64,000 nucleotides of DNA. It comes from Algiphilus aromaticivorans DG1253 (GTDB lineage Bacteria; Pseudomonadota; Gammaproteobacteria; Nevskiales; Nevskiaceae). The DNA lies in assembly GCF_000733765.1 (NCBI RefSeq), contig NZ_JPOG01000001.1:1798001-1862000 (forward strand), given 5' to 3'. Made by a program: the position numbers and the translations under genes. The notes beneath the pieces were generated by a model. That model worked only from the letters and a program-made list of their open reading frames with translations, ran no database searches and was not told the DNA's origin. This document shows, in pieces, positions 35,150 to 41,807 of the stretch (position 1 is its first letter; every line of letters begins with the position of its first letter).

Positions 35150-35553
35150 GCGATTTACGGCAGAGCACAACGGCTGCCGGCACGATCGCGACCGTTCGCC
35201 GCAGCAGGGCCGGCATGCCGGCTTCGCGTCGACGGGTGTCGCGAGACATGCACTCGAATTATGTCTGCCGCGCGTTGACAGCGCGCGGTTCAACCATCGC
35301 GCTCCGCGGATGGAACAGAGAATACCGATTCAGGCACGCCGACGCGCGCCGCGATTCATCTTCGTCAGCTTTGCAGAGTCCCGCATGTCGCCACAATCTC
35401 CGAACCGCTCGTCGTCTTCCGCCTCCGGCGGACGCGCGACAGCGGGAGATCGTGCACGACAAGCGCCGCTCGACGGCGCTGCGACGGCGAATACTGCCCT
35501 GAATCCTTCCATCATCCGTGGTGGCGCTCAGCCTTGGCGAGCCCATCCGCACC
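35150..35553 (+). promoter_or_regulatory. Long rluC-rne intergenic region, probable rne leader
   Basis: The 404-base gap between divergent rluC and rne holds no gene. Two hairpins are evident: AGACAT/ATGTCT (35244-35266, 11-base loop), followed at once by CCGCGCG/CGCGCGG (35268-35288). In E. coli a long leader with stem-loops lets RNase E control its own mRNA, and the length here fits that arrangement. Promoters were not identified with confidence. Confidence 0.5.
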
Positions 35554-38500
35554 ATGAAACGCATCCTTATCAACGCGACGCAGGCCGAAGAGCTGCGCGT
35601 CGCCATTGTCGACGGCCAGAAGCTCCTTGACCTCGACATCGAAACCGCCGCGCGCGAGCAGAAGAAGGCCAATGTCTACAAGGGCCGCATAACGCGCATC
35701 GAGCCCTCGCTCGAAGCCTGCTTTGTCGAGTACGGCGCCGAGCGGCACGGCTTTCTACCCCTCAAGGAAGTCGCACCCGAATACCTGAAGGGTGGTCCGG
35801 GTGGCGGCAATCCGGCCCAGCAGCTCTCCGAAGGCCAGGAGATCATCGTCCAGGTCGAAAAGGAGCAGCGCGGGACCAAGGGCGCGGCGCTGTCGACCTT
35901 CATCTCGCTGGCCGGGCGCTTCCTCGTTCTCATGCCCAACAACCCGCGTGCCGGCGGCATCTCGCGGCGTGTCGAGGGCGAGGAGCGCGACGAGTTGCGC
36001 GAGACCCTGAGTCAGGTCAGCTGCCCCGACGGTATGGGCGTCATCGTACGCACCAACGGCATCGGCCGGTCACCCGAAGAGGTGCAGTGGGATCTCGACT
36101 ACCTCGTCGAGATCTGGAACGCCATCACCAAGGCCGCCGAGAGCCGCAAGGCACCCTTCCTGGTCTACCAGGAGTCGAACCTCATCCTGCGCGCGCTGCG
36201 CGACTATCTGCGCCCGGACATCGGTGAAGTCATCATCGACAATCCGGAGCTCCACGAGCAGGCGCACGCCCATCTCTCGCACGTCATGCCGGCGACGCTG
36301 CCGCGGCTCAAGCTCTACGAGGACAACATCCCGCTGTTCTCGCGCTTCCAGGTCGAATCGCAGATCGAAACCGCGCATCAGCGCCAGGTGAATCTGCCTT
36401 CGGGCGGTTCCATCGTCATCGACCGCACCGAGGCGCTGACCTCCATCGACATCAACAGCGCCCGCGCCACCGGCGGCAAGGACATCGAGGACACCGCGCT
36501 GCAGACCAACCTGGAGGCGGCCGACGAAATCGCGCGCCAGCTGCGTCTGCGTGACGTCGGCGGACTCGTCGTCATCGACTTCATCGACATGAGCGCCAAC
36601 CGCAATCAGCGCCAGGTCGAGGAAAGGCTGCGCAAGGCCACCGAACGCGACCGCGCCCGTATCCAGACCGGCCGCATCTCGCGCTTCGGGCTGCTGGAGA
36701 TGTCACGCCAGCGCATGCGCCCCGCCCTGGGGGAGCACACACACCAGAACTGCCCACGCTGCGACGGCCACGGCCAGATCCGCAGCGTGGAATCGCTGTC
36801 GCTGTCGCTGCTCCGCCTCATTGAAGAGGAGTGCATGAAGGAGAAGACGGGCCGCGTCATCGCGCAGGTCCCGGTGGACGTCGCAGCCTTCCTGCTCAAC
36901 GAAAAGCGCGAGGTCATTCACGACATCGAGGCGCGCAACAAGGCCGAAGTGCTCGTCATCCCGAACACCTCCCTGCTGACACCGCGCTTCGAAATTACGC
37001 GTGAGAAGGCTGACCCCAAACAGCAGGAGCAGCGTGAATCCAGCAGCAGTTACCAGCTGCGAGAGGATTTCAGCAGCAGCGAAACCACCGACAAACTGAC
37101 GCGCAGCGACCGCGTACCTGCCGCCGAGCAGCCCGCCGTCGGCATGCTGCGGCCCTCCACGCCGCCGCCGGCACCGCGAGCGGAAACGCCCAGCGAAGAC
37201 GACGTCGCCAAGACACCTGCAGCCAAGCCCACGCCGGCGCAGCCGGGCCTGTGGCAGCGCATTCGCACTTGGTTTGCCGGACTTTCCACAGCCCCGTCCC
37301 AGACCACCAAGCCAGAAGCCGACGCCAAGAGCGAGTCGGACAGTCAGCAGCACGAAGGCCGTGAAGACGGCCAGCGCCGTGGCGGAAGCCGCCGCGGCGG
37401 CCAGAGCAGCGCCCGCAAGAGTTCGGGTGGCAACCGGCAGCGCAGCCGCTCCGGGCGTGGCAACGGCGAAAACGCCGATCGCGGCAGCGCCAAGAAGGCG
37501 TCGAACACCAACAAGGCGGCCCAAACGGAGGCCGAGGCCACCGAGGAAAAACCGCGCAAGCCCAACCGTGACAAGCAGCCTGCCGCCGAAGCGGATACGA
37601 GCGGTGAAGGCGGCGGGCGCCGCCGGCGGGGGGGCCGTAACGGCGAGCGCACCGATGCAGGCGCCAAGGCCAACGACGACGCGGCAAGCCCGGAAACGCA
37701 AGAGACGGAAACTACTGCCCAGGCCGACGACAGCACATCGCAGGCCGAGGGGGCCACGCCGACTGCGGGCGGCAGCGAAGGCGGTAGTCGCAAGCGCCGC
37801 CGTCGCCGCGGCGGGCGCAACCGCCGCCGCACCGGCAGCCAGGCCGCGCAGGGCGCTAGCGATGCCGGTACCGGCGATGAAGGCGCCGAGGGCAATGTCG
37901 ACGCCCTGGACAACGACGATACCGCCGAAGCGGCAGCGCCGGCAGCTGCTACGACAGCGCCTGCGGAAACTCGTACCGATGGCGAAGCAACCGCCTCGGT
38001 GCAAGATCCTGAGTCAACGCAGCGCGACACGAGCGCAATGACGCCGATGTCGGATGTCGACAATGACACGCCCGACGCGCACGCAGAACGCGAGCCGGCG
38101 TCAGACGACGACGTCGCGATAGAGCAGCCCGCTCCGGAGCAGAACGCGCCAGAGTCGGCGACCGCACGTCGCAGCATCCCGGCGGATCGCATACCGACAC
38201 CCCCGGCCCCGGCGCCCATGCCCGGCGTGAGCGCTCCGCCGGACAGCTGGCAGAGCACCGTTGAGCCCCCCGCTCCTGCCGCGGAAGCCGAAAGCGAGCC
38301 CGATTCCACGGGGACGAACGCACCATACGAGGCCCCTGCAGCCTCCTCCGGCAACGAGCCTGTCGACGATGCGATCGAAGCCGCCCCGGAAGCCGCGCCT
38401 GTTCCGGCGACAGCCGAGATCGAGCGTACGCCGGGCGACAGCGTTCAGGATGAGGTTTCCGAGCCGGTCTCCAATAAGTCCGAGAGCGACGTGGCTGATA

Positions 38501-38892
38501 CTGCCGAGCCGGCGGCCGAGGAAGCCACGCCCGGCGAGCAGGAGCCGAGCGCGGCAACGGAAGCCGCTGACGACAGCGATAACTTCCTGCCACGGCTCGT
38601 GCAAGCAGCCAACGCCGAAAGCGAAGGCCAAGTGGAGCTGATCAACACCCAGCCCGACACTGCCATAAACGATTCCGAGCCCGAACCCGAGGCCTTCCTG
38701 CCTCGCCTCATCGCCACCGCGGACGAGGAAGTGGGCGCCGCTGTCGAAGAAGCAAAGGACGAGACGGGTTCCGAGGAGCCCGCCGACGACACGAGCGCTA
38801 CACCCCTCGCCGACGACGAGCGCGCCCCGGTGGCAGACGAGGATTCCGAGACCGGCGAACAACGCGCCAAGGACGGCAGCGCCGGACAGTGA
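35554..38892 (+). CDS. rne: Ribonuclease E
   Basis: The 1112-residue endoribonuclease degrades mRNA and processes tRNA and rRNA. It begins [17 protein letters not shown]. The N-terminal catalytic half contains an S1 domain ([16 protein letters not shown]), DNA-like [16 protein letters not shown] with catalytic Asp residues, VVIDFIDM, and the Zn-link CPRCDGHG. From about residue 500 the chain is disordered: an Arg-rich RNA-binding part ([22 protein letters not shown]) and an Ala/Glu-rich tail with two FLPRL motifs near 1011 and 1048. ATG 35554 is the conserved start. A small gene is coupled downstream. Confidence 0.96.
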
Positions 38893-39182
38893 GCCAGGTC
38901 GGCAGCAGCCGCGCAGAGCTACTGGAGAGACTGCGCGGCTGCATCGGTCTTCACATCGCTTGGCGCGGCGAAACGTTGCAGCTGCAAGACCTCCTCGCCA
39001 CCGAAGGGCGCCTTGTCCTTCGATCCCTGGACGCAGCGGCGACGCTGCAGGCTGACCAGCACGGTGACCCTCGCCGCCGAACCCCGGTGCTACGCGAGCT
39101 TCCTGTGCTCAGCGAAGACGGCACACACCCCTCGGAGGCCGCCGAGGCGCTGCTGCGCGTTCTCGCGGAACAGCAGCGCTGA
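38889..39182 (+). CDS. Small protein coupled to rne, unknown function
   Basis: The 97-residue product starts at a GTG that overlaps the rne stop as GTGA. It is hydrophilic and helical, with [26 protein letters not shown] region features but no recognised domain, membrane segment or signal. The overlap and high G+C codon use favour a real gene. It may help RNase E function, but only position supports that. Confidence 0.55.
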
Positions 39183-39346: not shown

Positions 39347-39409
39347 AAATATACACGCGCCTATTTCTAAGTTTCTGTTTTATATATATTTTTTTTGTGC
39401 GGTGCGACA

Positions 39410-39438
39410 TTGACAGGGCTGCCTAGCCCCCGTATACT
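39410..39438 (+). promoter_or_regulatory. Near-consensus sigma-70 promoter for a small RNA
   Basis: TTGACA (39410-39415) and TATACT (39433-39438) are separated by exactly 17 bases. A run of A/T (39362-39396) lies directly upstream. The predicted start is near 39445. This is the best promoter match I noticed in the window, and no reading frame follows it. Confidence 0.8.
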
Positions 39439-39444
39439 GCACCG

Positions 39445-39575
39445 CAACAAAGACAGAAAAGAAAAAGCCCGCACAGGGCGGGCAAAGATTCTTAACTGTT
39501 TTTAACCAGGTCTCCTCCAGAAAGACCCTAGTGTCTTTCTCGCACTTGGCCCCCTGCTTGCAGGGGGCTTTTTTT
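39445..39575 (+). ncRNA. Unassigned small RNA with anti-Shine-Dalgarno segment
   Basis: The predicted transcript runs about 130 nt from the promoter at 39410-39438 to a strong terminator. In order it has a purine-rich A/G stretch (39446-39467), hairpin GCCCGC/GCGGGC (39467-39483), a single-stranded TCTCCTCC (39511-39518) complementary to ribosome-binding sites, an 8-bp hairpin AGAAAGAC/GTCTTTCT (39519-39540), and the terminator stem. A competing hairpin GGTCT/AGACC would put CCTCC in a loop. There is no ATG inside. No known RNA family was recognised. It lies between the rne operon and the convergent pnp. Confidence 0.7.
39549..39575 (+). terminator. Intrinsic terminator of small RNA
   Basis: GCCCCCTG (39549-39556) and CAGGGGGC (39561-39568) pair perfectly around CTTG and are followed by seven T residues, a textbook strong terminator. 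Confidence 0.9.
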
Positions 39576-39651
39576 ATTTGCTTTACCGCTATTTATGCCT
39601 CAATTGGGAGCCCTACGCAAGCGTAGGAAGCACTTGGGGGCTAAAAGTGGT

Positions 39652-39698: not shown

Positions 39699-41807
39699 TC
39701 AGGCCTCCGTGTCGGCGGCCAGCGCCTTCATCGACAGGCGAATGCGCCCCTGCTTGTCTACTTCCAGCACCTTGACGCGCACCACATCGCCTTCCTTGAG
39801 CACGTCGGAAACGTTCTCGACGCGCTCCTCGGCGATCTGGGAAATATGCACAAGGCCATCCTTGCCGGGCAGAATCGTGACGAAGGCACCGAAATCCATG
39901 ATGCGCGCCACCTTGCCCTCGTAGACATCGCCGGCCTCGACCTCGCGGGTCAGCGCCTGGATGCGCGCAATGGCATCATCGGTGGCCTGCTTGTCCACGG
40001 CCGAGATACGGATCACGCCATCGTCGTCGATGTCGATTGCCGCGCCCGTCTCCTTGGTCAGCGCCTGAATGGTCGCCCCACCCTTGCCGATGACGTCGCG
40101 GATCTTGTCCGGATTGATCTTCAGCGTGGTGATGCGCGGCGCCCACTCACTCATCTCGCCACGCGGCGCCGACAGCACCTTGTTCATCTCGCCGAGGATG
40201 TGCATGCGAGCGGTGTGCGCCTGATCCAGCGCCTCGCGCATGATCTCGCCGGTGATGCCGTTGATCTTGATGTCCATCTGCAGAGCCGTGACGCCCTCGG
40301 CAGTGCCGGCCACCTTGAAGTCCATGTCGCCGAGGTGATCCTCGTCGCCGAGGATATCGGTGAGCACGGCGTGGCGGTCGCCTTCCTTGATCAATCCCAT
40401 CGCCACACCGGCGACCGGTGCCTTGATGGGCACACCGGCGTCCATCAGCGACAGGCAGCCGCCGCAGACCGTCGCCATCGAGGAGGAGCCGTTGGACTCG
40501 GTAACCTCGGAGACGATACGGACGACGTAGGGGAAATCCTTCTCCAGATCCGGCATGACGGCTGCCAGCGCGCGCTTCGCCAGTCGACCGTGGCCGACTT
40601 CGCGCCGCTTGGTGCCAATACGACCGGTCTCGCCCACGCAGTAGGGCGGGAAGTTGTAATGGAGGAGGAAGCTGTCCTTGTAGGTCTGGTCGATGGCATC
40701 GATGAGCTGCGCATCGCGCGCCGTGCCCAGCGTGGTAATTGCCACGACCTGCGTCTCGCCGCGCGTGAAGATGGCCGAGCCATGCGTGCGCGGCAGAGCC
40801 TTCGCCTCGATATCGATAGGCCGCACGGTCTTGGTGTCGCGCCCATCGATACGGGGGTGGCCGTCGATAATGCGATTGCGCACGATCTCGGCTTCGAGGT
40901 CGTGTAGCGCCTCACCCACCTGACGCTCGGAAAACTGCGGTTCATCACCGGCACAGAGCGCCTGCTTGGCCTCACCACGGATCGCGTCGAGCCGGTCGCG
41001 GCGCTCGATCTTGTCGGTAATGGCAAAGGCTTCGGTGACCTTGGTGCCAGCCTCGGCGCGCACGGCGTCCAGCACCGCGGTGCTGTCGGTAGCGGGCTGC
41101 CAGTCCCAGCGCGGCGCGCCAGCCTCGGCGGCGAGCTCGTTGATCGCCTGAATCGCCACCTGCATCTGCTCGTGGCCGAAGAGAACGGCGCCGAGCATGA
41201 CCTCCTCGGACAGGCTCTTGGCCTCGGACTCCACCATCAGCACGGCCTGCTCGGTGCCGGCTACCACCAGATCGAGCTCCGAGGACTCCAGCTCGGTGGC
41301 AGATGGGTTGAGCAGGTAGTTGCCGTCGGCATAACCGACGCGCACGGCGCCGATCGGGCCGTCGAAGGGCACACCGGCCACTGCGACCGCTGCCGATGCG
41401 CCGATCAGGGCCGGAATGTCGCCGTCCACGTCAGGATTCAGCGACAGCACCGTGGCGACGATCTGCACCTCGTTCATGAAACCGTCGGGGAACAGCGGAC
41501 GCAGCGGGCGATCGATCAGCCGGCAGGTCAGCGTTTCCTTTTCGGTGGGTCGGCCCTCGCGGCGGAAGAAGCTGCCGGGAATCCGGCCGCCGGCGTAGGA
41601 GCGCTCCTGGTAGTCGACCGTCAGCGGGAAGAAGGCCTGGTCCGGGCGGGCATCCCGCTTGGCGACGACGGTGACGAGAACGACCGTATCGTCCATCGTC
41701 ACCTTGACTGCGCCGCTGGCCTGGCGCGCCATGGCGCCGGTCTCGAGAGTGACGGTGCGACCGCCGAATGTGAATGTCTTGCTTACGCGCGTGTCATTCG
41801 GTGACAT
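39699..41807 (-). CDS. pnp: Polyribonucleotide nucleotidyltransferase (PNPase)
   Basis: The 702-residue phosphorolytic 3'-5' exoribonuclease is a degradosome component. Two RNase PH domains ([47 protein letters not shown]) are followed by KH ([18 protein letters not shown]) and S1 ([14 protein letters not shown]) domains. ATG 41807 has AGGAAG upstream. It follows rpsO in the conserved order. Both main degradosome enzymes, RNase E and PNPase, are within 5 kb and convergent. Confidence 0.97.

Follow-up and report, generated by a model that had tools for sequence, protein, structure and literature searches.

In Sinorhizobium meliloti, the regulator PhaR recognizes the motif YGCRNYGCR set inside A/T-rich arms, and the small RNA (sRNA) MmgR is under its control: one S. 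meliloti study lists the mmgR promoter site, CAATTGTGCACCGCAGCATTA, as efficiently bound by PhaR, reports that PhaR represses mmgR, and places two PhaR sites on either side of the -35 element at phaP1 and phaP2 (PMC12542648). The same study relates, for S. meliloti and other species, that polyhydroxybutyrate (PHB) draws PhaR away (PMC12542648). In an S. meliloti mmgR mutant, the proteins PhaP1 and PhaP2 are increased and their mRNA is unchanged (PMC8401924). The four Caulobacter siblings of this RNA have no common promoter motif (PMC12559287). A second relevant group is RF02278, the Betaproteobacteria toxic small RNA, which inhibits growth when expressed in E. coli; in B. cenocepacia, three siblings rise 8.0-, 6.9- and 4.3-fold in glucose medium, three of the four siblings have a common upstream motif, and overexpression of ncS27 slows growth (PMC5688073). 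For Bordetella S17, the subject of a paper that cites RF02278, RNase E trims the RNA near the start of a C/U-rich loop to give a 67-nt form, and its authors propose that S17 is repressed in one mode of growth; neither PhaR nor PHB turned up when the main text of that paper was searched for these terms (PMC11722255). Literature searches on sRNAs together with PhaR, phasin, PHB, MmgR, RF02278 and the genera concerned, which mostly covered papers outside subscription, returned neither a description of the RNA considered here nor a link between RF02278 and PhaR.

This RNA lies in a window of 64,000 nucleotides (the whole stretch of DNA that was analysed, numbered from its first base) from Algiphilus aromaticivorans DG1253, and all of its parts are on the plus strand. 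A promoter motif search located the -35 hexamer TTGACA (39410-39415) and the -10 hexamer TATACT (39433-39438), which are separated by a 17-nt spacer and together match 11 of 12 consensus positions; the count of such promoter sites was 1 in 1001 bases vs 0.5 in shuffles. The predicted transcript of ~131 nt (39445-39575), whose start is placed from the -10 hexamer and whose end is the T run, contains no ATG. It comprises, in order, an A-rich tract and the leader hairpin GCCCGC/GCGGGC 3' of it (39467-39483), the exposed anti-Shine-Dalgarno (anti-SD) stretch TCTCCTCC (39511-39518, with CTCCTCC at 39512-39518), an 8-bp hairpin with arms AGAAAGAC and GTCTTTCT (39519-39540), the linker CGCACTT (39541-39547), largely conserved in the alignments, and an intrinsic terminator (39548-39575) made of a 9-pair stem (39548-39569) and seven T (39569-39575). 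On the minus strand, the leader hairpin (39483-39467) forms, together with the A-rich tract, a terminator-like site; to judge from its sequence, the convergent pnp transcript could end there, a role that would account for the A-rich leader without Hfq. An initial annotation of the same DNA had described the promoter, an ATG-free transcript of about 130 nt, TCTCCTCC, the 8-bp hairpin and the seven-T terminator, and each of these lies where that annotation placed it. It had also likened the A/G-rich 5' part to an Hfq distal-face binding sequence; such binding is conjectural, and the sequence of the leader varies among copies.

The initial annotation had also regarded the RNA as unassigned, with a promoter of its own, and had recognised no named family in it, and the Rfam check agrees: in a scan of the whole window only two tRNAs reach their gathering score, and no family reaches its cut-off over the RNA. 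At a relaxed E-value there are several weak matches, which have a CU stretch and a terminator in common. Against RF00519 (MmgR/aR8) the window RNA scores 22.2 bits where the gathering score is 41 (E = 0.012 in a 241-base search), and 13 related loci gave no RF00519 match at E <= 0.5; against RF02278 it scores 23.3 bits where the gathering score is 50, and 2 of 13 related loci match at E <= 0.5, namely L396 (28.0) and L211 (25.9). Membership of RF00519 and of RF02278 was rejected, each score lying under the gathering score.

The RNA family is present in most of the searched genomes of the order to which Solimonas, Nevskia, Salinisphaera and Algiphilus belong. A blastn search with 39405-39580 covered 61 genomes, drawn from the window's own genome and its genus, family and order (including Algiphilus sp. 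HH_bin9 (G001, the second genome of the window's genus), Solimonas, Nevskia, Salinisphaera, Fontimonas thermophila, Hydrocarboniphaga effusa, Panacagrimonas, Stagnimonas and Polycyclovorans), and returned a match at E <= 0.001 in 55 of the 61, its own included, and in 60 of 61 at the looser E <= 1. A profile search of the locus stretches added copies in G008 (L216), G010 (L330) and G011 (L329) and a poor one in G026 (L331, E = 0.011); G054 and G059 gave no acceptable copy in a profile search that there covered the phaR regions only. Several genomes have two or more copies, sometimes in tandem. Among the 75 distinct copies collected from the locus stretches (nhmmer, E <= 1e-6), 71 keep CTCCTCC, the other four being a fragment and three divergent paralogs that read CTCCTTG instead, and a hairpin of 8 or 9 pairs lies directly 3' of CTCCTCC in 71/71, with arms that read AGAAAGGC, AGAAAGAC, AGGAAGGC, AGAAGGGC, GAAAGGCC and others, each complemented by its partner arm. 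In alignment A2, for which 40 of the 75 copies were chosen (alignment A1 leaves out 4 of the 75), three hairpin pairs, corresponding to the window hairpin at 39519-39540, are changed on both sides, and none of the eight is broken in any sequence. Conservation of the stems and of CCTCC in relatives, which the initial annotation had put forward as a test of its reading, is thus borne out. The leader from promoter to core is variable: its median length is 58 nt, and 38/62 copies have AAAA or at least 7 purines in a row in it. The conserved unit thus consists of anti-SD, hairpin, linker and terminator. A divergent paralog, GTCTCCTTGAGAAAGGC, whose own promoter is not obvious, occurs in three genomes 3' of normal copies downstream of phaR (L008 at ~1774, L012 at ~1351 and L013 at ~1781). 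A loose-pattern scan of contigs gave many matches in Bacteroidota and other phyla among the matches listed, and these are probably due to chance.

In the window, the RNA is preceded by rne for ribonuclease E (35518-38892, plus strand), which scores 512 bits against NCBIfam TIGR00757, over its cut-off, and 844 bits against NF008074, below the cut-off of 908. A 97-aa ORF (38889-39182, plus strand) overlaps the end of rne; it has no Pfam match at E <= 1e-4, and the other Algiphilus genome has an ORF that is ~41.5 % identical to it over 65 residues. On the far side lies the convergent pnp for polynucleotide phosphorylase (39699-41807, minus strand; TIGR03591, 1066 bits). The RNA adjoins pnp and the 97-aa ORF in both Algiphilus genomes, and among the loci examined the rne-pnp site is common to these two only, consistent with the initial annotation's remark that the position may be chance. 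A functional tie to rne and pnp was discarded because phaR, the gene for a repressor of PHB synthesis, adjoins the RNA in 59/75 copies, whereas the pnp neighbourhood was seen in the two Algiphilus genomes only. The PhaR DNA-binding domain (PF07879) was found in 59/61 genomes and not in G044 or G047. Every one of the 59 copies with phaR in the locus stretch has the gene upstream on the same strand, at a distance of 150-690 nt in 58 and 2379 nt in one. The 16/75 copies that have no phaR in the locus stretch include those of the window and of G001, two genomes that have their phaR genes at other sites; its absence near the remaining copies is weak evidence because the stretches are short. The PhaR of the window genome scores 153.6 bits against TIGR01848 ('polyhydroxyalkanoate synthesis repressor PhaR'), where the cut-off is 109.45. 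Around phaR and phaP in that genome, no PHB synthase appeared among the 17 ORFs scanned of 26 chosen. A second full PhaR-domain match exists in G001, G010, G031 and G039, and G017 has two partial ones.

The promoter region of the window RNA (39395-39450) holds the palindrome TGCACCGCA. The main PhaR-type operator, TGCACCGCAACA (39438-39449, plus strand), overlaps the last base of the -10 hexamer and the predicted start, and the mmgR site of S. meliloti (PMC12542648) is nearly identical to it; a motif scan located a further PhaR-type site, TGCGGTGCG (YGCRNYGCR; 39398-39406, plus strand), directly 5' of the -35 hexamer. In the 160 nt that precede the core, YGCRNYGCR occurs in 64/75 copies vs 4.0 % in shuffles (mononucleotide shuffles, as in the phaR, phasin and RF02278 counts below). 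It is in promoter position in 61/75 copies: in 60 its first base is also the final base of a -10-like hexamer, and in 54 a TTGAC or TTGGC begins 27-29 nt upstream of it. In three of the 64 (L013 at 1780, L328 at 1027, and L344) it lies outside the usual position. The motif is absent from 11/75 copies. Among these are the copies of the two genomes without detected PhaR, G044 and G047, the G044 copy being near a contig end; others belong to G055, G056 and G060 (the Salinisphaera genus group), all of which have phaR, or sit beside phaR (L208, L210 and L216).

The same motif recurs at genes of PHB metabolism. In the window genome, TGCANYGCANCA has 45 occurrences (23 + 22) vs 5 in a reversed control; nine of the 45 were read in context, two being in promoters (phaR and phasin) and seven inside ORFs, and a scan for -35-like elements at 30 of the 45 picked out two, those of the sRNA and of the phasin gene. 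The phaR promoter there reads TTTATAATGCACCGCAGCA, where the operator begins 31 nt upstream of the ATG, and that of the phasin gene (PF09361) reads TTGACA...TATTGTGCATTGCACAAAATGCTGCAGCGCAACA. At related loci the motif lies 5' of phaR in 20/29 (13.6 % in shuffles), at 8/30 phasin-family genes of a first batch, mostly of the large type (9.1 %), and at 28/35 of a second (7.7 %), with one or more sites at 27/27 small PhaP-type genes of the second batch, a class assigned by N-termini after looking at the data. The second batch left out L384, which had no start, and four of 40 regions (L385, L387, L389 and L390), and start codons of phaR and phasin genes were picked by a simple rule, some wrongly (e.g. 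L206, L213, L351 and L364). By type, the large phasin-family proteins (L222-L250) are mostly without the motif and the small PhaP type (~148 aa; L351-L381) has it in the 27 genes so assigned. The PhaR-type operator and the linkage to phaR, which the initial annotation had missed, point to the likely biology of the RNA.

Comparison of the copies thus shows a conserved 3' module, linkage to phaR in most of them and a putative operator over the promoter, and the RNA is, with good probability, an independently transcribed and probably trans-acting anti-SD sRNA of the PHB regulon, repressed by PhaR and induced by PHB. By analogy, the best reading is that it works like MmgR of Sinorhizobium though failing the RF00519 model. 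PhaR bound over the -10 hexamer and the start would block transcription; under carbon excess, with granules of the natural storage polyester PHB forming, PhaR would be drawn onto them and leave the promoter. The RNA would then accumulate from the freed promoter, and its variable 5' leader may be trimmed, as trimming of the kind reported for S17 would account for that variability. The exposed UCUCCUCC would pair with ribosome-binding sites of the type GGAGGAGA(C) and so keep a group of genes for carbon or lipid metabolism, and possibly phasin genes as well, from being translated. In this way the RNA would signal to the rest of metabolism that storage granules are filling.

Candidate targets in the window genome include several lipid and hydrocarbon genes. 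The pattern GGAGGAGAN{2,10}ATG occurs 34 times vs 1 in the reversed control, and GGAGGN{5,13}ATG 1035 times vs 333 in the control; because GGAGG-type sites are many, in the control as well, the list of GGAGGAGAN targets is exploratory. Of 33 distinct GGAGGAGAN sites, 18 continue with C, so that pairing would extend to GUCUCCUCC. An ORF of at least 60 aa was present in 25 of the 30 GGAGGAGAN-type loci read, and a Pfam scan of 24 of these 25 (L408 was left out) gave a match in 21, including a wax-ester synthase/DGAT (WS/DGAT), P450, phytanoyl-CoA dioxygenase, aldehyde dehydrogenase, a flavin monooxygenase-like protein, short-chain dehydrogenase, lipase and two DUF1302 proteins, but also a penicillin amidase, GGDEF, molybdopterin oxidoreductase and YhdP. 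Nine GGAGGAGA leaders form predicted duplexes of -16.4 to -24.8 kcal/mol, the strongest among the leaders tried being that of WS/DGAT (-24.8 kcal/mol), although their stronger pairing is partly by construction because they were chosen for holding the 8-mer; several GGAGGAGAC leaders belong to lipid or hydrocarbon genes. Forty other GGAGG sites, drawn for comparison from the listed occurrences of GGAGGN{5,13}ATG, gave 23 ORFs of at least 100 aa, six of which we take to be cell-wall and division genes of one cluster. Ordinary strong ribosome-binding sites may account for how many GGAGGAGA leaders there are.

These pairings bear on how closely the RNA copies MmgR. A strict equivalent would chiefly repress phasin mRNAs and so limit granule number, with PhaR repressing both the phasin and the phasin's RNA antagonist. 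The operator motif common to the sRNA and phaP promoters agrees with such a loop, as does the S. meliloti mmgR mutant, with more PhaP1 and PhaP2 protein from unchanged mRNA (PMC8401924). However, the window genome's two phasin leaders pair weakly, at -13.2 and -12.0 kcal/mol against the range given above for nine leaders selected for GGAGGAGA, and the phaP ribosome-binding sites of relatives, read by eye, are mostly plain AGGAG or GGAG; the phaR leader duplex reaches -9.3 kcal/mol. For the MmgR trait of lowering phasin level and PHB accumulation, the predicted pairing with phasin leaders is thus weak, and an MmgR-like phasin target is unsupported by pairing; phasin was rejected as the sole target, and the strict loop is judged unlikely.

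Less probable again, and on the whole improbable, is an anti-SD sRNA unrelated to PHB, in which the block over the -10 hexamer and start would be nothing more than a usual part of a promoter, and proximity to phaR an inherited position only. Copies that sit beside phaR without the motif accord with that account, but the palindrome equals the published PhaR motif and holds the same promoter position in 61/75 copies, the motif recurs at phaR and phaP promoters, and it is absent from the copies of the two genomes in which phaR was not detected (G044 and G047).

Folding gives the anti-SD its expected exposure and bears on a further proposal of the initial annotation, that two mutually exclusive hairpins make the RNA a two-state switch. 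The fold of 39445-39576 has an energy of -50.1 kcal/mol vs a shuffle mean of -34.7 (z = -4.15), with 0/200 shuffles as stable, and in the computed fold of the window RNA the bases of 39511-39518 have an unpaired probability of 0.66-0.96, the first T excepted (0.28). A functional anti-SD is a conserved, unpaired stretch complementary to the SD sequence, and here CTCCTCC is both kept (71/75) and mostly unpaired, so the earlier view that TCTCCTCC is exposed and able to mask ribosome-binding sites appears sound as far as the model fold goes. Both hairpins can form in the window sequence, and the alternative one (39509-39527) overlaps that at 39519-39540; however, it is 3.9 kcal/mol weaker (-4.6 vs -8.5 kcal/mol), and five of its pairs are possible in only 19/71 copies, 17 of the 19 needing a G-U pair, whereas the first hairpin forms in 71/71 and covaries. 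The switch was therefore discarded because the second hairpin is not conserved, and it is very improbable. From the earlier interpretation, the anti-SD RNA, the lack of a named family and the chance position stand, and the two-hairpin switch does not. Scarcely credible is the reading of the locus as no sRNA at all but a degenerate spacer whose promoter and terminators are fortuitous, since its place between rne and the convergent pnp, where the stems could terminate both, is outweighed by conservation at differing genomic positions, covariation and multiple copies in some genomes.

The RNA family extends beyond its order. A covariance model, R1, built from alignment A2, has matches at E <= 0.001 in at least 9 of 274 genomes of the class, three in the order and six outside; the count is a lower bound because the filters were strict and 18 candidates were scored per genome among the results listed. 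At L396, outside the order, the sequence of genes is a thiolase C-terminus, PhaR (PF07879, PF05233), a 114-aa ORF and the sRNA, and the 114-aa protein, which has no Pfam match, looks like a phasin. At L398, also outside the order, phaR is present and TGCACTGCA lies 138 nt before the anti-SD. The locus stretches of L392, L394, L397 and L399 hold no phaR. Two tandem related anti-SD RNAs are present in L392 (~1504 and ~1631; outside the order), with neither a PhaR-type motif nor phaR in the stretch examined.

PhaR-type sites also occur at betaproteobacterial RNAs of RF02278. In the order to which G166 belongs, the model matches 22 of 41 genomes at E <= 1e-4, 15 of them over the cut-off. Among 30 Burkholderiales loci (L252 and L282-L310, a few of whose anchors are uncertain, e.g. 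L294 and L296), YGCRNYGCR lies within 110 nt upstream in 16 (1.4 % in shuffles), a TTAGA-type promoter in 6, neither in 8 and both in 0, and perhaps, from these promoter sequences, RF02278 is one RNA module under two regulators. No phaR was found at E <= 1e-4 in the flanks of L252-L310. The glucose pattern of the B. cenocepacia siblings would suit release of PhaR by PHB. In Gammaproteobacteria, 48/143 genomes match RF02278 at E <= 0.01, 1 of them over the cut-off; L253-L281 are mostly such sub-threshold RNAs, with CTCCTCCATCCTCCTTTGGTGG, a hairpin and a GC terminator, and many of them share a TATTAGAAAAT-like promoter. In L268 and L274, PhaR-type sites lie close to the promoter.

It is quite possible, if still tentative, that anti-SD sRNAs repressed by PhaR recur in three groups of proteobacteria as the signal that granules are filling, namely MmgR in the alphaproteobacteria, a PhaR-controlled part of RF02278 in Burkholderiales, and the phaR-linked family in Nevskiales/Salinisphaerales and beyond, with PhaR as the regulator of those RF02278 RNAs and with all three damping carbon uptake and catabolism, in the window genome through lipid and hydrocarbon genes that include the wax-ester/triacylglycerol synthase. 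If so, the order would have an RNA arm of the PhaR circuit, storage-polymer status would be tied to the translation of other metabolic genes, PhaR would be a testable regulator for the betaproteobacterial RF02278 RNAs, and there would be a new handle on PHB accumulation.

Set against known systems, the RNA recalls the NmsR sRNAs of Neisseria, likened here by description, which are tandem, CU-rich and complementary to the ribosome-binding regions of metabolic genes (PMC5688073). With RF02278 ('double-hairpin RNA') it shares the CU-rich anti-SD, the hairpin, the terminator and the several copies per genome, but in many RF02278 members the first CCTCC-type stretch is followed by another, and some copies have the TTAGA-type promoter. 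MmgR/aR8 (RF00519 'suhB'; MmgR of S. meliloti and SisA-D of Caulobacter) likewise comprises short RNAs with an intrinsic terminator and a conserved anti-SD, with siblings in some species (PMC12559287). MmgR has in addition a PhaR-type promoter site (CAATTGTGCACCGCAGCATTA; PMC12542648), as do 61/75 copies of the window family, and a PHB link in S. meliloti (PMC8401924). In contrast, most species with aR8 are described as having one copy beside an N-formylglutamate amidohydrolase gene (PMC12559287), whereas the window family is gammaproteobacterial and phaR-linked. The type of circuit is thus already known from MmgR; the RNA family, its linkage to phaR and its distribution appear to be new.
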